Under the pieces are notes generated by a model. The model was not told where the DNA came from. It worked only from the letters and a program-made list of their open reading frames with translations, and ran no database searches. From contig JADINA010000019.1 of the NCBI GenBank assembly GCA_017694295.1, positions 1 through 64,000 on the forward strand: DNA of 64,000 nt. Direction: 5' to 3'. Shown here piece after piece: positions 688 through 7,032 of the stretch. The number at the start of each line of letters is the position of its first letter. Within the stretch, counting starts at the first letter, position 1. The translations under genes and the position numbers were made by a program. This DNA is from Candidatus Alloenteromonas pullistercoris. Its GTDB lineage: Bacteria > Bacillota_I > Bacilli_A > RFN20 > CAG-826.

Positions 688-885
688 ATGGATTATCCAA
701 AACTCATCAAAAAGCTTCGGGAAAAGCTTGTTGTTTCCCAAACTGAATTGGCCGAAATATTCGGCTGCGCTTTTGCTTCAGTTAACAGATGGGAAAACGG
801 AATCCACGAACCGACATTTAAAATGAAGCGGAAAATCCTATCTCTCTGCAAAAAACATGGAATTGTGGTGGAGGAATCAAAATGA
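688..885 (+). CDS. Small Xre-type helix-turn-helix regulator
   Basis: This 65-residue protein is almost wholly a Cro/CI-type HTH: KLIKKLREKLVVSQTELAEIF, then ASVNRWENGIHEPT, the usual recognition helix and WE-N-G-P signature. The ATG at 688 is chosen because GAGG lies 8 nt upstream. It overlaps the next gene by 4 nt (ATGA at 882-885), so the two are translationally coupled. Single-domain regulators of this sort commonly control restriction-modification or defence operons (C-protein-like role); that role is inferred here from position as first gene. The coding sequence is A/T-rich like the following three genes and unlike the G+C-rich bulk of the window. Confidence 0.8.
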   Translation: MDYPKLIKKLREKLVVSQTELAEIFGCAFASVNRWENGIHEPTFKMKRKILSLCKKHGIVVEESK

Positions 886-3161
886 CAACCTGGGAAAAAC
901 TAGTAACCGATGAAGCATTGAACGAAGTGGTTAAAGTCAGGAAGCCTACAGCAATTCAAGAAAAAGTAATGGAGGGCGATATTTCCGTCAAAGAAGCTGA
1001 CGGATGGACCGTTGTTAAGAGCTATGTGAACCGTTCTGCGTTAATGGAGAAGCCAAAACCAATTGGAGATGCTTTTGAAGATGAAGTTTGGATGATTTTC
1101 CAAAGAATGGGCTTTAAGGTCATGAATTCTGATCGAAAATTCAAACTCGAATATTCATCAGGGCTAACAAAACAAATCGACGTTGTCGCAATTGATGATG
1201 AAGTCTGCCTTTTGATTGAATGCAAAGCAACCGCTCAAGAAGGCAATAATCATCAATGGAAAACTGATTTAGAGGCTATTAATGGCTTCAGAGAAAAACT
1301 TTTTGCGGAGATTAGAACCCAGTACCCAAACAGAAAATGCAAATATATTTTTGCGACCAAAAATTATGTGATTGGCGATCAGGATGCAAAGAGAATGGCC
1401 GATTTCCAAATTGCAAATTTCGACTATGAAACGGTTCAGTATTATGCGCAACTTGTTGATCATCTTGGCCAAGCCGCAAAATATCAATTGCTAGGTAATA
1501 TTTTTGCCAAGCAGACCATCTCATCTTTAGATGAAAAAGTCCCCGCAATCGAGGGAAAGATGGGCGGTCTTACATACTATTCTTTTGTAATCGAGCCAGC
1601 TCGCTTGTTAAAAATCGCCTATATCCTTCATAGAAACAAGGCTAATCATAGGATGATGCCTACATATCAACGCCTAATTAAAAAAGATAGATTAAAGGCA
1701 ATTCGCGAGTACGTTAATCAAGGCGGTTATTTCCCAAATTCTTTGATTGTTTCCATTGATTCAAATGGCAGAGGCGTTCGATTTGATGCAGCGCAAGCTA
1801 GAAATGGTAATTGCCCATCGCGTATCGGTACCCTTCATTTGCCGAAACAATATCAAAGCGTTTATGTTATCGACGGGCAACATAGACTATACGGATATTC
1901 CGAAACACAATGGGCCGATAAGAATTCCATTCCTGTTGTTGCTTTCGTTGATTTACCGAAAGAAGACCAGGTCAAGATGTTTATGGATATCAACCAAAAT
2001 CAAAAGCCTGTGTCAAAATCACTGCGCAACACTCTCAACATCGATCTCCTTTGGAATTCGGAATCTTATGCTGACAGGCTGGAAGCCCTCATGCTCAATA
2101 TTGGCCAAGAACTGGGCGAAGATCCGCGCTCACCCCTCTTTGGCAGAATAGTCACTGGAGAAGATACCACATCCGGGAAAAGGTGCATCACTCTCGACTA
2201 CATCAAAGAAGCTTTGAAACAATCTCATTTCTTTAACACATACAAGAAAAAGAAAAATGAGGTACAAACCGTTGGTACATTTGACAAAATGGACAACGAT
2301 CAAACGTTTGAAACGCTCTTCCCCTTCCTCACCAAAAGTTTTCAGACGGTAAAGGAGTATTGCTCTGAAGAATGGGAAAAAGGCCAAGATGGTTTTTTGA
2401 CAATCAACAATTGCACTTATGCAATTCTTCGTATTTTCGACGATATTGCAAACATTGAACTTGCGAAGGCGGGAAAAAATAAAATCGATGATCCAAATGC
2501 CTTCTACTCAGAATGTGAGCCGCTGCTAATCGACCTTTGCGATACCATCAACCATCTAGACGATGAAGCAATCAATGTCATCAAGACCAGTAAGGGCGGA
2601 AGCGCAAAGAAAGACTCATGGAGAAAACTTCAGGTCGCCTTCCACAACATGTATCCTGAGTTCACAAACGAGGAACTGGAAAAGTTCATTCAGGAAAACT
2701 GCGTTAACAACGATGATGAATCCGACGACTTGTTAAGCAAAATTCTTGCCGCATTCAAAGAGAAACTTTGGAGTTCTTTCCCAGACAAAGGGAAATGGAT
2801 CTGGGATTATGCCCCGGAAAGCGTTCGTGATGCTTTGATAGCAAAAACTGCCATAGAAAACTCGAAAAGAGAAAACCGGGGTATTCTAGAAAAAGCCGAC
2901 CCATGGGAATTTGTGTCCTATCCGGAAATTCTAGAAATTGTTAAATATGGTTCGAATTGGTCCACTTTCGCCTCTTCGATTTTCGATGCTAACGGTTCGT
3001 CTATTAACAAAATGGAAGCCCTGTCTCTCATTAAAAATTTAGGAAGCTACAAGAATAAGTTGAGTAGTGCCCAGCATATTGTTTCGAGCCAATACCAAGA
3101 GATTAAAAAGATCTTCGAAAAATATGCTCAGTCTATCGATGCATCTACTACAGAGGAATAA
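882..3161 (+). CDS. Nuclease-like domain fused to a DGQHR (DndB-like) domain protein
   Basis: 759 residues. The N-terminal third has a PD-(D/E)xK nuclease-like core: a helix with GDAFEDEVWMIFQRMGF near residues 62-80, then QIDVVA with Asp100 and ECK at Glu113-Lys115, as in Mrr/RecB-type endonucleases. The middle holds the DGQHR motif at residues 331-335 (VYVIDGQHRLYGYS), followed by a ParB-like MFMDINQNQKPVSKSL segment, which is the signature of DndB/DGQHR proteins. The C-terminal 300 residues are helical and not recognised. DGQHR proteins are known from phosphorothioation (Dnd) systems, but no dndCDE genes lie nearby; instead the next gene is a Dam-type methylase 2 nt downstream. The likely role is DNA recognition and cleavage in a restriction-like system. 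Domain calls are good; function is inferred. Confidence 0.8.
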   Translation: MTTWEKLVTDEALNEVVKVRKPTAIQEKVMEGDISVKEADGWTVVKSYVNRSALMEKPKPIGDAFEDEVWMIFQRMGFKVMNSDRKFKLEYSSGLTKQIDVVAIDDEVCLLIECKATAQEGNNHQWKTDLEAINGFREKLFAEIRTQYPNRKCKYIFATKNYVIGDQDAKRMADFQIANFDYETVQYYAQLVDHLGQAAKYQLLGNIFAKQTISSLDEKVPAIEGKMGGLTYYSFVIEPARLLKIAYILHRNKANHRMMPTYQRLIKKDRLKAIREYVNQGGYFPNSLIVSIDSNGRGVRFDAAQARNGNCPSRIGTLHLPKQYQSVYVIDGQHRLYGYSETQWADKNSIPVVAFVDLPKEDQVKMFMDINQNQKPVSKSLRNTLNIDLLWNSESYADRLEALMLNIGQELGEDPRSPLFGRIVTGEDTTSGKRCITLDYIKEALKQSHFFNTYKKKKNEVQTVGTFDKMDNDQTFETLFPFLTKSFQTVKEYCSEEWEKGQDGFLTINNCTYAILRIFDDIANIELAKAGKNKIDDPNAFYSECEPLLIDLCDTINHLDDEAINVIKTSKGGSAKKDSWRKLQVAFHNMYPEFTNEELEKFIQENCVNNDDESDDLLSKILAAFKEKLWSSFPDKGKWIWDYAPESVRDALIAKTAIENSKRENRGILEKADPWEFVSYPEILEIVKYGSNWSTFASSIFDANGSSINKMEALSLIKNLGSYKNKLSSAQHIVSSQYQEIKKIFEKYAQSIDASTTEE

Positions 3162-3163
3162 CT

Positions 3164-3994
3164 ATGGAACCAATTCTTAAATGGGCAGGAGGAAAACGCC
3201 AGCTCTTAAAAGAATTGCTCAAACACGTTTCGAAAAACGATTTACAAACACACACATATTTCGAGCCATTTATTGGCGGTGGTGCTCTCTTCCTGTACCT
3301 TGCGCCAACAACAGCGGTAATCAATGATGTCAATGTTGAACTCGTAGGAATGTACACGGTTATCCGCGAACAGCCAGAACAACTTATTGAGCAATTAAAA
3401 ATATATAAAGAAGGCTATCCGAATAATTACGAGGAAATACGTTCATTAGATAGAAACCCTGACTTTTCTGAAGTTTCTCAAGTAATCCGGGCTGCTCGTT
3501 TTATATACCTGAACAAAACGTGCTACAATGGTTTATATAGAGTTAACTCACAAGGTTATTTTAATGTGCCAATGGGGAAATATAAAAACCCGGACATCGT
3601 CAACGAATTTAGAATCAGAAAACTTAGCGAATATCTCAAGAACAACAAAGTTAAAATTTCTAACGTCGACTTCGAAAAGGCGGTGAAATCAGCTAAGGCT
3701 GGGGATTTTATTTATTTCGATCCTCCTTATGATTATGAAACAACTGGATTTACCACATATTCAGCCGATGGCTTTACTAGAGAAGATCTTGAACGGCTAA
3801 AACATTCGTGCGATACATTAATAAATAAAGGGTGCATTGTAATGGTCAGTAACAATGACACGTCTTTCGTTAATCAATTGTTTTCTGACGACAATTATCA
3901 AATAAGTCACATCGAAGCTAACAGGTTTATTAATTGTGATGGACAAAAACGCACCAAAGCCAAGGAGGTCATTATTTATGGCAGAAAGAACTGA
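3164..3994 (+). CDS. D12-class (Dam/DpnM-like) DNA adenine N6-methyltransferase
   Basis: 276 residues, the usual length of the D12 family. Motif X/I is WAGGK (residues 6-10) with FIGGGALF near residue 37 for S-adenosylmethionine binding, and the catalytic motif IV is DPPY at residues 186-189. The enzyme should methylate the N6 of adenine in a short site such as GATC, but the site cannot be read from the sequence. Only 2 nt separate it from the nuclease-DGQHR gene, and its 3' end overlaps the next gene by 17 nt. This points to a methylase that protects host DNA from, or marks DNA for, the upstream nuclease-like protein. The RBS is GAGGAA just before the ATG. Confidence 0.9.
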   Translation: MEPILKWAGGKRQLLKELLKHVSKNDLQTHTYFEPFIGGGALFLYLAPTTAVINDVNVELVGMYTVIREQPEQLIEQLKIYKEGYPNNYEEIRSLDRNPDFSEVSQVIRAARFIYLNKTCYNGLYRVNSQGYFNVPMGKYKNPDIVNEFRIRKLSEYLKNNKVKISNVDFEKAVKSAKAGDFIYFDPPYDYETTGFTTYSADGFTREDLERLKHSCDTLINKGCIVMVSNNDTSFVNQLFSDDNYQISHIEANRFINCDGQKRTKAKEVIIYGRKN

Positions 3995-4433
3995 GTTTCC
4001 TTTTCCTCAAGCGGACGATTTTAACAAAGTCGTCACAATACTGAACGTTGAGGACGAAAACAAGTTGAACGACAAGAAGTCGTTGTGCATGTTGCTTGGG
4101 AATGTAACCGAAAGACAGGTCCAGTACTATATTTCTGCGTGCCAGTATCTCGGTTTAGTTTCGGCTGATAAAAAATACACTGATTTAGGAGATGAAATTA
4201 GGAGTTTGGGCGAAGATCAGCAATTCGTCCAATTAGCAAGGCTAGTGATTTCTAAAGACATTTTTGGAACCGTGTATTTTTCAGAAAAAAGTCTCGGCTG
4301 CAAGTACTCTAGAGAAGACATTATTGAAATCATGCACGATCACAATCTAGGTTTTGAAAGCGACGAGATGTTTAAAAGGCGTGCCCAGACCGTTCTGAAA
4401 TGGGTTGAATGGATTAACGATAAATTTGATTAG
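3978..4433 (+). CDS. Winged-helix-like protein of the Dam/DGQHR operon
   Basis: 151 residues, starting at the ATG at 3978, because AAGGAGG lies at 3961-3967 and an earlier in-frame ATG at 3936 has no RBS. The first half (LNDKKSLCMLLGNVTERQVQYYISACQYLGLV) reads like a winged-helix DNA-binding unit: helix, turn-helix, then YTDLGDEI as the wing. Similar small modules sit at the ends of some type II restriction enzymes and next to their methylases. No nuclease motif is visible. It overlaps the methylase gene by 17 nt, so it is the fourth gene of the operon. It could be the specificity or restriction accessory subunit. The family is not firmly recognised and the function is inferred from context. 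Confidence 0.6.
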   Translation: MAERTEFPFPQADDFNKVVTILNVEDENKLNDKKSLCMLLGNVTERQVQYYISACQYLGLVSADKKYTDLGDEIRSLGEDQQFVQLARLVISKDIFGTVYFSEKSLGCKYSREDIIEIMHDHNLGFESDEMFKRRAQTVLKWVEWINDKFD

Positions 4434-4523
4434 TTTTAAAAAAACGATAAAAAAGAAGGGGTTGCAGTCAACGCGCGAATTGTATCAATATCGTTGTGCC
4501 TTGCCACTTTGGGGAAAGACAAA

Positions 4524-4555
4524 GGGCCCGCATCACGCATGTGGGCTCTTTTTTT
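4524..4555 (+). terminator. Rho-independent terminator after the defence-like operon
   Basis: A 10-bp stem (4524-4533 with 4539-4548, two G-T pairs) with a 5-nt loop is followed by seven T. It closes the operon 90 nt after the last stop codon. Confidence 0.85.
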
Positions 4556-4966
4556 GCCAAAAGGCCGATGAAGCCCATTCTTCTTTGAACCTCGGTTTCC
4601 CGACAATAGTGGCTTAAGATTCCTGATTCCTCGACCCGGAAATAGCAAAAACGCCTATTCGCTTCGGTAAGGATGGCTTTTTGCCTTGCTTGTTCTTTGG
4701 CATTGGTTTTGTCTCAATTACGGGGCTTGCTTCGAACAGGAAAGCGGTTGGCATGGTTATAGTGACCTCGATGAGTTCTTCTCTTCCGAAGGGCATTTGG
4801 TAGAGTCGGCCGATATGGCTTCCATCCAGGCGATGCTAAACCGTGCATTGCAGACGACGACCGGCCTTCCCTGCCTCATGCAAAAGCAGGCTAATGCCGC
4901 CTTCCTTGGCCAAACCGCCTAATTTCGGCTTTGCCGCATAATAAGCAGTAAAAGGATCTTGGCAAA
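4556..4966. other. Gene-free stretch, possibly decayed sequence
   Basis: About 410 bp with no convincing gene. Short open frames on both strands (for example 4614-4796 minus and 4686-4922 plus) overlap each other, lack ribosome binding sites and match nothing I recognise. Decay of a former gene is possible but not shown. Confidence 0.4.
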
Positions 4967-5030: not shown

Positions 5031-5882
5031 ATGAAAGCAAACTTTTCTGTTAAAAAGGACGTGGAAGACGTCTGCGATTGCCTTCAAATAAGCGAAACCG
5101 AATTTGCCAATAACGCCAGCATGTCCTTAAAGACGCTGCGAGACGCCTGCAATGGAAAGTTCACAAATAAGACGCTTGAGAAGATATACAGTTCGATTTA
5201 CGAAGCCGGAATTCGCCTCAATGCCGCCAAGGTTGAACTGCTGGAAGAGCGAACGCAACCGGGGCACACCCTTCTATTTCACGGATCGAAAGGAGGCATT
5301 GATTGCCTTAGCGAAAACGGCTCGCGTCCAAATTGCGATTTTGGGCCCGGGTTTTATTGCTCGCAGCTTTATTCCTCCGCGCTTTGCTTCATCGAAACAT
5401 ACGATTATTCCTCAATCTACGTTTTGGATATCGACCTCGATGGGCTTTCGTGTGCGCATATCCCGCCTTCTCTGGATTGGATGATCATCGTTTGCTATTT
5501 CCGTCAAATGCTTAATAAGTACGAGGCTCACCCGGTTTTGAAGTCATCGCTTGAGAAAATCCGGGGAAAAGACGTCATCATCGCCCCAATCGCCGACAAC
5601 CGAATGTTTCAGATTATGCGCGAGTTTGGCGAAGGGAATATAACCGATGTCGAGGCGATCCATGCCCTTTCGGCTTCTCGATTAGGGTACCAATATGTCT
5701 TCAAGAGCAAAAATGCCTTAGAGCGAATCGTTTTTTCCGATAGGTTTTTCTGCTCGTCAAAGGAAAGGCAAAACTCCGCGCGGAACACGCTTGAAAGGAA
5801 AAGCGCCATCGATACGAAATTATTACTGGCCAAAAGGGAGTTTCGCGGGAAAGGCGTTTATGTCGATGAGGTATTAAAATGA
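5031..5882 (+). CDS. HTH-fused ADP-ribosyltransferase-like (DUF3990) protein, candidate toxin
   Basis: 283 residues. Residues 1-60 form an HTH-like helical unit (CDCLQISETEFANNASMS, LKTLRDACNGKF). From about residue 80 comes the DUF3990 signature: TLLFHGSKGGIDCL, then FGPGFYCSQLYSSALCF and YVLDIDLDGL. DUF3990 is regarded as an ADP-ribosyltransferase-fold family often found in toxin-antitoxin-like pairs. The stop overlaps the next start as ATGA (5879-5882), typical of a coupled toxin/antitoxin or effector/immunity pair. No good Shine-Dalgarno is seen: a -10-like GATAAT or TATATA ends 4-8 nt before the ATG, so the mRNA may be leaderless. An upstream dyad suggests autoregulation by the HTH part. 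Target and activity are unknown. Confidence 0.7.
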   Translation: MKANFSVKKDVEDVCDCLQISETEFANNASMSLKTLRDACNGKFTNKTLEKIYSSIYEAGIRLNAAKVELLEERTQPGHTLLFHGSKGGIDCLSENGSRPNCDFGPGFYCSQLYSSALCFIETYDYSSIYVLDIDLDGLSCAHIPPSLDWMIIVCYFRQMLNKYEAHPVLKSSLEKIRGKDVIIAPIADNRMFQIMREFGEGNITDVEAIHALSASRLGYQYVFKSKNALERIVFSDRFFCSSKERQNSARNTLERKSAIDTKLLLAKREFRGKGVYVDEVLK

Positions 5883-6379
5883 GGGAATTCGACGCTGATG
5901 GGCTAACTTTGGCCAAGTATCAAGCTGAGATATTTTCCGCCTCGGTGATCAAGGCGCCTTGTTCATCGCCCGTTTTTCTGCGCCGATTCTTCAGCAGCGA
6001 CTTCGCCAAGAAACTCGACCATATGGCAATCGCCTTTCTTTCCCTTGACGTGGATGAGGCCTTTTGCTCTTTGGCTAATGAATTTGGCGAATCCTCATAC
6101 GGAAAGGAGAGATACCCGGCGGAAGCCCTTTACTGGGTTGGCTATATCACCCGCTACATCTCCTATACACGATGCTGCTCCTCGTTTTTCGTCTATAAGA
6201 CCTTCCCAATGCGGCTATTGGTCGATTGCTACCCTGGCTTCCATACCCAGAGCGAGGAGTGGGCCATCGATAGGCTGTTATCGAAAGTGGGCAAAACCGA
6301 AGAGCATTTCGATCCCAACGCCCGCCTTAAGGAAATCCTTAGGAGGAGAAGAGGCTATGGCGATAAGACAAAGCCTTAG
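5879..6379 (+). CDS. Partner protein of the DUF3990 gene, possible antitoxin
   Basis: 166 residues that I do not recognise. The protein is largely helical with aromatic-rich segments (ALYWVGYITRYISYTR, PMRLLVDCYPGFHTQS) and a basic tail (LRRRRGYGDKTKP). No signal peptide or membrane segment is present. Start ATG 5879 overlaps the previous stop, so expression depends on the HTH-ART gene. In such two-gene units the second product is usually the neutralising partner; this is inference from layout only. The gene stops 20 nt before the stop of the convergent FtsK-like gene. Confidence 0.6.
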   Translation: MREFDADGLTLAKYQAEIFSASVIKAPCSSPVFLRRFFSSDFAKKLDHMAIAFLSLDVDEAFCSLANEFGESSYGKERYPAEALYWVGYITRYISYTRCCSSFFVYKTFPMRLLVDCYPGFHTQSEEWAIDRLLSKVGKTEEHFDPNARLKEILRRRRGYGDKTKP

Positions 6380-6399
6380 GTTTGCGGTTTGACAAAGGC

Positions 6400-7032
6400 C
6401 TATTCCCGGCCTTTAAGGCGATAGACGATGAGATGCCATTCGCCATAATCCTCTTCTCCGATCGCCTCGATCGCCGTTTTCAGGTTTTCTTGCCACGGCT
6501 TCGAGAAATAGCCTTGCTCGAAGGGGTTTTGGTTACCGTAATAGCAAATGGCGAGGAAATCGAATATCGCCCTCACCTGTGTTGACGAAAGCAAAAGGTG
6601 GGGGACTTGGGACGTGCATACGAGGTGGACGTTGGCTTTTTTGCAGCTGGTTCTGTCGCAAAGGCTTAATAGCCTATCGCCTATATCGTTGTCCTCGTCT
6701 TTCTCATCCGCTTCCTTTAGCCAATTCAGCCGATGCGAAAACTCCTCGAAAATGACGTATACTGGCGGGAATTCGGCTTCCTTGTTTTCCTTTATGGCCA
6801 AAAGGCGGGATTCCATGAGGCTGGTTGCTTCGTCTTCATCGTAAGGGCGGATGTTTGTTCCGTTTAGTAGACGCCTATATTCAAACTCTTTTGGGTCATC
6901 GATGTAGATGTTGGCTTCCGAATCGCTATTTTGGGTGATTTTCTTTATTAGGGCCTTTAGGAAATAGGTCTTGCCGGTTCCGGTTTCCCCGGCAACCAAC
7001 AAGTTGCTTGAGATGTCAAACGACATATCCAT
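6400..7032 (-). CDS. Short FtsK/SpoIIIE-like P-loop ATPase
   Basis: 210 residues with Walker A GETGTGKT (about residues 16-23) and a Walker B-like PPVYVIFEEFSH near residue 95, then a CTSQVPHLLLSS sensor-like segment. This is the order of the FtsK/HerA translocase motor core. It lacks the membrane, coiled-coil and gamma domains of housekeeping FtsK (700 or more residues), so it resembles the small motors carried by conjugative or defence islands, or a truncated gene. The start at 7032 is backed by AAGGAGGA 8 nt upstream on the minus strand. It is convergent with the ART pair and divergent from the AAA_14 gene. Substrate is probably DNA; its role is unknown. Confidence 0.65.
   Translation of the reverse strand: MDMSFDISSNLLVAGETGTGKTYFLKALIKKITQNSDSEANIYIDDPKEFEYRRLLNGTNIRPYDEDEATSLMESRLLAIKENKEAEFPPVYVIFEEFSHRLNWLKEADEKDEDNDIGDRLLSLCDRTSCKKANVHLVCTSQVPHLLLSSTQVRAIFDFLAICYYGNQNPFEQGYFSKPWQENLKTAIEAIGEEDYGEWHLIVYRLKGRE

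Follow-up and report, generated by a model that had tools for sequence, protein, structure and literature searches.

The window analysed here, a 64,000-nucleotide (nt) stretch of Candidatus Alloenteromonas pullistercoris DNA (contig JADINA010000019.1, positions 1 to 64,000), carries near its beginning a four-gene operon (688–4433) in which a protein joining a nuclease domain to a DGQHR domain is encoded beside a DNA adenine methylase. This operon probably acts as a restriction-modification-like defence module, in which methylation would protect self DNA and the restriction effector would be an NTP-gated nuclease. A first-pass annotation had described a tightly packed set of four defence-like genes at this place, and as a whole that description was confirmed, the genes being the following:

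688–885, plus strand, small Xre/MqsA-like helix-turn-helix (HTH) protein of 65 amino acids (aa) (Pfam HTH_3, E 3.9e-9)
882–3161, plus strand, 759-aa nuclease-DGQHR protein (PD-(D/E)xK domain at residues 1–210, ParB/DndB-type NTPase domain at about 220–375, helical C-terminal part at 470–759)
3164–3994, plus strand, D12/Dam-type adenine methylase, DpnM-like (PF02086, E 1.6e-59)
3978–4433, plus strand, 151-aa stand-alone DUF7226 protein, putative target-recognition subunit (PF23871, E 3.4e-22)

The start of the 759-aa gene overlaps the end of the HTH gene by 4 nt and its end is separated from the methylase gene by a 2-nt gap, while the 151-aa gene, with an ATG at 3978, overlaps the methylase gene by 17 nt; a GTG start at 3936 is also open.

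The 759-aa protein and its relatives are referred to below as the anchor. The residues D100, E113 and K115 and the DGQHR motif (331–335) were found at the positions given in the first-pass annotation. In the structure model of the protein (pLDDT 91, 71 aligned sequences), residues 61–189 aligned with 1y88 at a VIA-align Z of 12.0, and the model also aligned with Can2, Card1 and Nt.BspD6I, all of which have nuclease-type domains, at Z 8–10 (9.0–9.7 for Card1 and Can2); by the caveat of the VIA-align output, Z values below 8, or below about 13 for helical bundles, may reflect a common arrangement. The predicted fold and the conserved D/E/K triad bear out the proposed PD-(D/E)xK core in the N-terminal domain. 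The results also showed that the protein matches the DGQHR-domain model TIGR03187 (E 1.7e-51; 175.6 bits, above the NCBIfam cut-off of 58.85), that residues 220–383 match the Pfam DndB family PF14072 (E 1.3e-20), and that residues 223–375 resemble structures of ParB, Noc and PadC (VIA-align Z about 8). The probable assignment of the 220–375 domain to the ParB type leans on the two family matches besides the structural alignment, and the proposed fusion of a nuclease to a DGQHR domain is upheld by all three. Foldseek gave no match of the model in the PDB at E up to 0.001 and 17 matches among viral models, several of them named as DNA-sulfur-modification, ParB-like or GmrSD N-terminal proteins; comparison of the sequence with solved structures gave a single weak match (E 0.12), which was taken as chance, and no PADLOC REase_II model matched at E up to 1. 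A HEPN-like enzyme at the C-terminus of the anchor was considered (PF18731 under its cut-off in L005; Csm6 at Z 5.9) and was not adopted, because no histidine occurs among the positions at 560–756 that keep a charged residue or histidine in more than 70% of sequences.

The methylase scored 260.8 bits against the Dam/DpnM model TIGR00571 (cut-off 114.85), and its nearest solved structure is DpnM (2dpm, E 1e-69, residues 1–272). It is the sole D12 gene found in its 87%-complete genome. Because the methylase resembles DpnM, GATC is predicted as its target. A CYNGLYR...FNVPxG context is common to the methylases of the window, of DpnII-linked loci and of DUF7226-linked loci; this context presumably holds the residues that read GATC, and the site stays a prediction. 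PD-Lambda-5 was rejected as an identity for the operon: its B model matches the methylase, but no PD-Lambda-5 A model was among the matches of the 759-aa protein, and a literature search on the name yielded nothing.

The linkage of anchor and methylase was examined in relatives picked by similarity to the 759-aa protein and three homologues, not by neighbouring genes. Genome contigs were scanned with a four-sequence profile (window, L002, L004 and L005), and the best 80 of 350 relatives were kept. Among 99 loci, the window included, 94 had a match; removal of duplicates (L001, L097, L098) and of loci only partly alike (L003, L006, L007, L008) left 87, two of which (L050, L088) are truncated at a contig end; filtering to below 90% identity gives 79. 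The D12 profile used for counting adjacency was made from the neighbours of the anchors, and the D12 genes of L045 and L047, found by a stop-to-stop frame search, were counted. The result showed a D12 methylase on the same strand within 150 bp of the anchor in 68 of the 79 loci (window included). In four further loci a DpnII gene alone lies between the two; in L042 the D12 gene is divergent, 141 bp from the anchor, and in L016, L074 and L078 it is 2.3–4.0 kb away. No D12 gene was found in the examined stretch of three of the 79 loci (L004, L005 and L088, the last cut by its contig). Almost all D12 frames in these loci (73 of 76) are within 1 kb of the anchor, and an independent search with the window methylase alone found 75 matches among the neighbours of the 87 loci, some not adjoining the anchor. 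A Dam-type methylase is thus the usual partner of the nuclease-DGQHR protein, as had been proposed.

The 759-aa protein itself is sporadic: it was found in 3 of the 96 near relatives and in 6 of the 279 genomes examined from the order (the window's own genome being included or listed alongside); named hosts of the relatives include Bacillota, Bacteroidota, Actinomycetota and a spirochaete. A profile scan of viral contigs found at least 39 loci, mostly partial matches, and all seven long matches have an adjacent D12 gene (split over two frames in L131) and keep the nuclease triad intact. In two scans of viral contigs for peptide patterns taken from the window proteins alone, no relative turned up. 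In the Akkermansia phage Chantilly (L169:1519–4625) a DGQHR-like protein is encoded convergently with a DNA methyltransferase, near an integrase.

The DGQHR motif is invariant (87 of 87 loci) and the triad residues are largely kept, D100 in 77, E113 in 72 and K115 in 67 of the 87; with L088 left out, 60 of 78 keep all three. The distant relatives L007 and L003 have D-E-T at the triad positions and an adjoining methylase gene, a weak match in L003. Nine of the 87 loci (L026, L039, L043, L044, L046, L048, L053, L057 and L062) have three genes upstream, which in L026 match PADLOC DrmA (E 3e-137), DrmB (7e-44) and NERD-helicase (5e-43) and in the other eight are homologous to these. None of these nine DISARM-linked anchors has an intact triad. 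With redundant members removed and L002 added (the same protein as L048, on a contig cut short), they form one clade of eight rows in a quick tree (SH-aLRT 100), in which D and E survive in L026, D alone in L002 and L053, and none of the three residues in the other five. On these sequences the triad decayed gradually after a single event and was not lost eight times independently, and because the rows form one clade a Fisher test of triad loss against DISARM linkage was not used. Such decay in the DrmA/DrmB/NERD-helicase clade is as expected of an effector that can be replaced by another effector. The DISARM-like operon itself (L026:195–10298 and the other eight), with DrmA, DrmB, NERD-helicase, D12 methylase and a DGQHR protein having a decayed nuclease site, was not found described in the literature searched. 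In two other loci (L074, L081), PtuA- and PtuB-like Septu genes stand beside the D12 gene.

The fourth protein had been called winged-helix-like, and this is borne out in part. Its model (pLDDT 93) is wholly helical; the best VIA match is FokI residues 4–239 (Z 9.0, rmsd 3.9, 145 residues, 10% identity), followed here by BrxA (Z 8.1), so the likeness to the FokI recognition domain and to tandem winged helices is present but only moderate. Since the FokI recognition domain and BrxA both bind DNA, DUF7226 is likely, on this model, to bind DNA through tandem winged helices. Foldseek gave no PDB match of the model at E up to 0.001, and comparison of the sequence with solved structures gave a single weak match (E 0.7), taken as chance. 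The 151-aa protein matches the last third of PADLOC REase_II model PDLC03513 and is the sole protein of the operon to match a REase_II model. In four of five plasmid records (L010–L013), DUF7226 is the C-terminal domain of proteins of about 430 aa with DUF6996 and DUF6997, each adjoined by a DNA adenine methylase, and in the fifth (L009) it lies within a 388-aa protein without DUF6996 or DUF6997; DUF6996-DUF6997 is a putative nuclease.

DUF7226 is present in 18 of 392 genomes of the phylum, the window's included. In 17 of the 18, within the 3.1–3.4 kb viewed, a D12 frame is fused to it or adjoins it, L105, L106, L110 and L113 being clear fusions; in the exception, L109, a D12-DUF7226 frame lies about 5 kb from its DUF7226. 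Near the anchor, DUF7226 was found in 13 of the 87 loci, and the order anchor-D12-DUF7226 in 12, which make up eight distinct rows including the window. In the anchor tree nine rows form the window's group (support 100): eight have DUF7226, and the ninth is L016, facing a DpnII operon; L037 branches separately. The methylase tree has 86 rows, 11 of the 79 loci being left out as their D12 gene is lacking, cut or divergent. In it the window's methylase falls in a group of 11 rows (100/95) that also contains fused D12-DUF7226 proteins and six further rows with DUF7226, outside the group of 53 anchor-linked methylases (100/99); L037 falls with L011 and others having DUF7226, and L019, on a long branch, near DpnII-linked methylases. 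From these placements in the two trees, methylase and DUF7226 appear to form a cassette, acquired by this nuclease on two occasions or more. A homologue of the window's HTH protein, a putative regulator of the operon by its sequence, lies near the anchor in 4 of the 87 loci and upstream of it in L094, L047 and L052. The recurrence of the anchor-D12 pair and of the order anchor-D12-DUF7226 makes the arrangement more than chance, and the four-gene set proposed as a unit is one variant of a wider two-gene core.

Two other arrangements of DUF7226 were seen. In L120, L121, L122 and L123 a D12-DUF7226 fusion ends a four-gene row that has a protein of about 650 aa (a 566-aa frame in L120) and one of about 310 aa, with a DUF6339 protein by Pfam in the L123 row; this row is possibly a separate defence system. 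In L117 and L119 a RecF/SMC-type ATPase, a small protein, a D12 methylase and DUF7226 follow one another, an arrangement that recalls DndD-type ATPase cores with a methylase attached.

Taken together, a near-constant methylase argues for protection, because a nuclease activated by methylation would attack its own host; with the conserved nuclease site and a likely DNA-binding partner it points to methyl-protected restriction, from which we infer the direction of control and the defence role. In such a module the DpnM-like methylase would mark host DNA with N6-methyladenine, predicted at GATC, and the nuclease-DGQHR protein would be the restriction effector, its PD-(D/E)xK domain cutting DNA. 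The ParB-type domain would bind NTP and toggle the protein between DNA-engaged and released states, and the DUF7226 protein would supply or sharpen site recognition. On unmethylated foreign DNA the complex would stay engaged and cut; on methylated self DNA it would either not be recruited or would hydrolyse NTP and release the DNA, as DndI does with phosphorothioate. The HTH protein would limit expression. An NTP switch is suggested by the modelled ParB-type fold and by analogy: in one study, ParB-fold proteins require an arginine of the P motif to bind NTP, and both ATP and GTP were bound by a DndB-like protein (PMC12704722), and in another, DndI, a ParB-like DUF262 (DGQQR) domain with an HNH nuclease, senses the self mark, whereupon its ATPase is stimulated and it departs from self DNA (PMC11662687). 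The first-pass annotation had instead proposed that the DndB-type domain reads adenine methylation. For this no support was found, the fold being that of ParB-type NTPases, and the DUF7226 protein is by its model the better candidate for site recognition; what stands of that interpretation is the nuclease, the fusion, the methylase partner and the lack of a named system.

The operon shares features with several known systems. Like DndI and SspE, described in two papers as phosphorothioate-sensing ParB-like DUF262 proteins with HNH nucleases (PMC11662687, PMC13251355), it has a ParB-type NTPase domain with a DGQ(Q/H)R motif (DGQQR in DndI), a fused nuclease and linked self-mark genes. Unlike them, its predicted mark is adenine methylation, its nuclease is an N-terminal PD-(D/E)xK domain, and its NTPase-type domain belongs to TIGR03187/PF14072; no DUF262 or HNH/DUF1524 Pfam match of the GmrSD/SspE/DndI class was found in the 759-aa protein at E up to 1. 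With DUF6996-DUF6997-DUF7226 proteins it has in common DUF7226 and an adjoining D12 methylase, but in the window operon DUF7226 is a separate protein, and the putative nuclease is the DGQHR protein. Methylase and predicted nuclease in one operon with conserved linkage is a feature of type II restriction-modification, and the methylase is like that of DpnII/MboI systems, within whose operons the anchor is even found; the putative nuclease here, however, bears an NTPase-type domain, and no DpnII-family endonuclease gene was found adjoining the window operon. A subclade of the methylase-DGQHR pair is joined to DrmA and DrmB as in DISARM, whereas the window copy keeps the nuclease triad, and the L026 DrmA and DrmB queries gave no match among the genes called near the window anchor (five downstream and, as far as the contig edge, two upstream).

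No characterised system with this gene set was named in the literature and family libraries searched, in keeping with the first-pass annotation. The set was described in none of the papers listed by searches of a literature that was judged by titles and abstract starts and whose coverage leaves out most subscription papers and bioRxiv preprints; no paper mentioning 'DGQHR' describes this pair, judged largely from the same parts of the papers, and DUF7226, DUF6997 and DUF6996 are not mentioned in it. Within the limits of that literature, the pair of methylase and nuclease-DGQHR protein would be a new form of restriction-modification.

Several observations weigh against methyl-protected restriction by the anchor. 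In L071, L077, L082 and L086 an anchor with intact triad lies amid DpnII and DpnA-type genes, and as such operons have their own endonuclease the anchor is not simply the missing restriction enzyme there. In L004 and L005 a radical-SAM protein and an ATPase stand beside the anchor in place of the methylase. The triad is changed in 10 of 70 non-DISARM anchors, four by K to R only, and in the conserved INENQ motif the window copy carries Q372 at a position that is E in 82 of 87. As for DUF7226, its FokI likeness is that of an all-helical model at Z 9, possibly a common arrangement by the tool's own warning, and FokI is absent from Foldseek's best 50 for the model; moreover, 8 of 9 regions have D12 and DUF7226 with no anchor within the surrounding 16 kb, the ninth being a lone DUF7226, and DUF7226 may serve the methylase instead of the nuclease.

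An accessory role of the nuclease-DGQHR protein in association with methylation, as a regulator or as a second-line nuclease acting on phage DNA that is methylated or modified and not as the restriction partner of the methylase, would fit its presence in complete DpnII operons, with PtuAB and with DrmAB, and the dispensability of its nuclease in the DISARM clade; in Acinetobacter, likewise, a shorter DGQHR protein, in which no nuclease domain was recognised, adjoins a BglII-type system. We consider this role distinctly unlikely: it would leave many loci with an orphan methylase, the triad is mostly kept, and single-seed searches for DrmA, DrmB, NERD-helicase, DpnII, PtuA and PtuB placed one of these six effector genes near just 17 of the 87 anchors, other nuclease types not having been searched systematically. 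Somewhat less improbable, though still unlikely, is that DUF7226 is a cofactor or regulator of the methylase and that the four-gene set combines a methylase unit with a nuclease that does not use DUF7226. The fusion of DUF7226 to D12 methylases or its place beside them in regions lacking the anchor, and the position of the window's methylase in the methylase tree, speak for this; its C-terminal position in methylase-linked proteins classed by PADLOC as type II endonucleases, and the eight distinct rows in which it shares an operon with the anchor, speak for a role with the nuclease. That the anchor is a DndB or DpdB homologue left over from a Dnd (phosphorothioate) or Dpd (deazaguanine) system after loss of the other genes is highly improbable: PF14072 and the DndB and DpdB models do match, but the scores against the equivalog models are far under their cut-offs (TIGR03233 for DndB, 42.4 bits against 328; NF041060 for DpdB, 77 against 300), and the linkage to the methylase extends across several phyla. 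As to the reported absence of dndCDE, no dnd-like gene is among the other three genes of the operon; genome-wide, the DndE profile was silent in this genome and in the controls alike, and DndC and DndD were not searched.

The surroundings of the operon agree in most points with the first-pass annotation. The operon is A/T-rich, with 39.8% G+C against 53% for the window, a lower value than in any of 121 equally sized sliding blocks. Two further features were noted:

4512–4562, plus strand, intrinsic-terminator-like stem-loop with T run (fold −24.4 kcal/mol, z −4.3)
652–666, no strand assigned, near-perfect inverted repeat AAAGTGTTATACTTT overlapping a promoter-like −10 (TATACT, 659–664), a possible operator of the HTH protein

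The stem-loop supports by folding the terminator proposed after the operon, although it was not among the outputs of a simple terminator scan. Promoter-like sites in the region are no commoner than in shuffled sequences, so the operator and −10 at 652–666 are weak. Upstream, at 2–574 on the minus strand, lies an HTH gene, presumably of an IS30 element, that reaches the contig edge, the window beginning at contig base 1; the IS30-like neighbour proposed earlier is supported by a Pfam HTH_38 match (E 5e-4), but the score is under the HTH_38 cut-off and the element is cut by the contig edge.

Downstream, the window encodes a DUF3990 protein and then a 166-aa protein with weak DUF3791 likeness (5031–6379), adjoined on the minus strand by a gene with DUF87/AAA matches (6400–7032); these genes (5031–7032) are possible toxin or defence neighbours. 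On the alphaproteobacterial plasmids of L004 (9368–13591) and L005 (9332–13472), the anchor, a short DGQHR protein, the radical-SAM protein and the ATPase (GHKL by Pfam in L004) form a set that may be another DNA-modification system.

Methyl-protected restriction of this kind would be to adenine methylation what the ParB-nucleases that sense it are to phosphorothioate, with members in Bacillota, Bacteroidota, Actinomycetota and other groups. A more specific view, which we hold only tentatively and regard as somewhat doubtful, is that it forms a distinct class in which a ParB-type NTPase switch, beyond site competition alone, tells self from non-self: the methylase and DGQHR core would be a portable self-recognition module for different killers (its own fused nuclease, a DrmAB-helicase, Septu or DpnII), and the window variant would be a freed type II recognition domain working with a foreign nuclease. 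The natural versions with live nuclease, decayed nuclease and different effector genes would allow a direct test of the role of the DGQHR/DndB-type domain, and DUF7226 would provide a detachable, methylase-linked DNA-recognition module.

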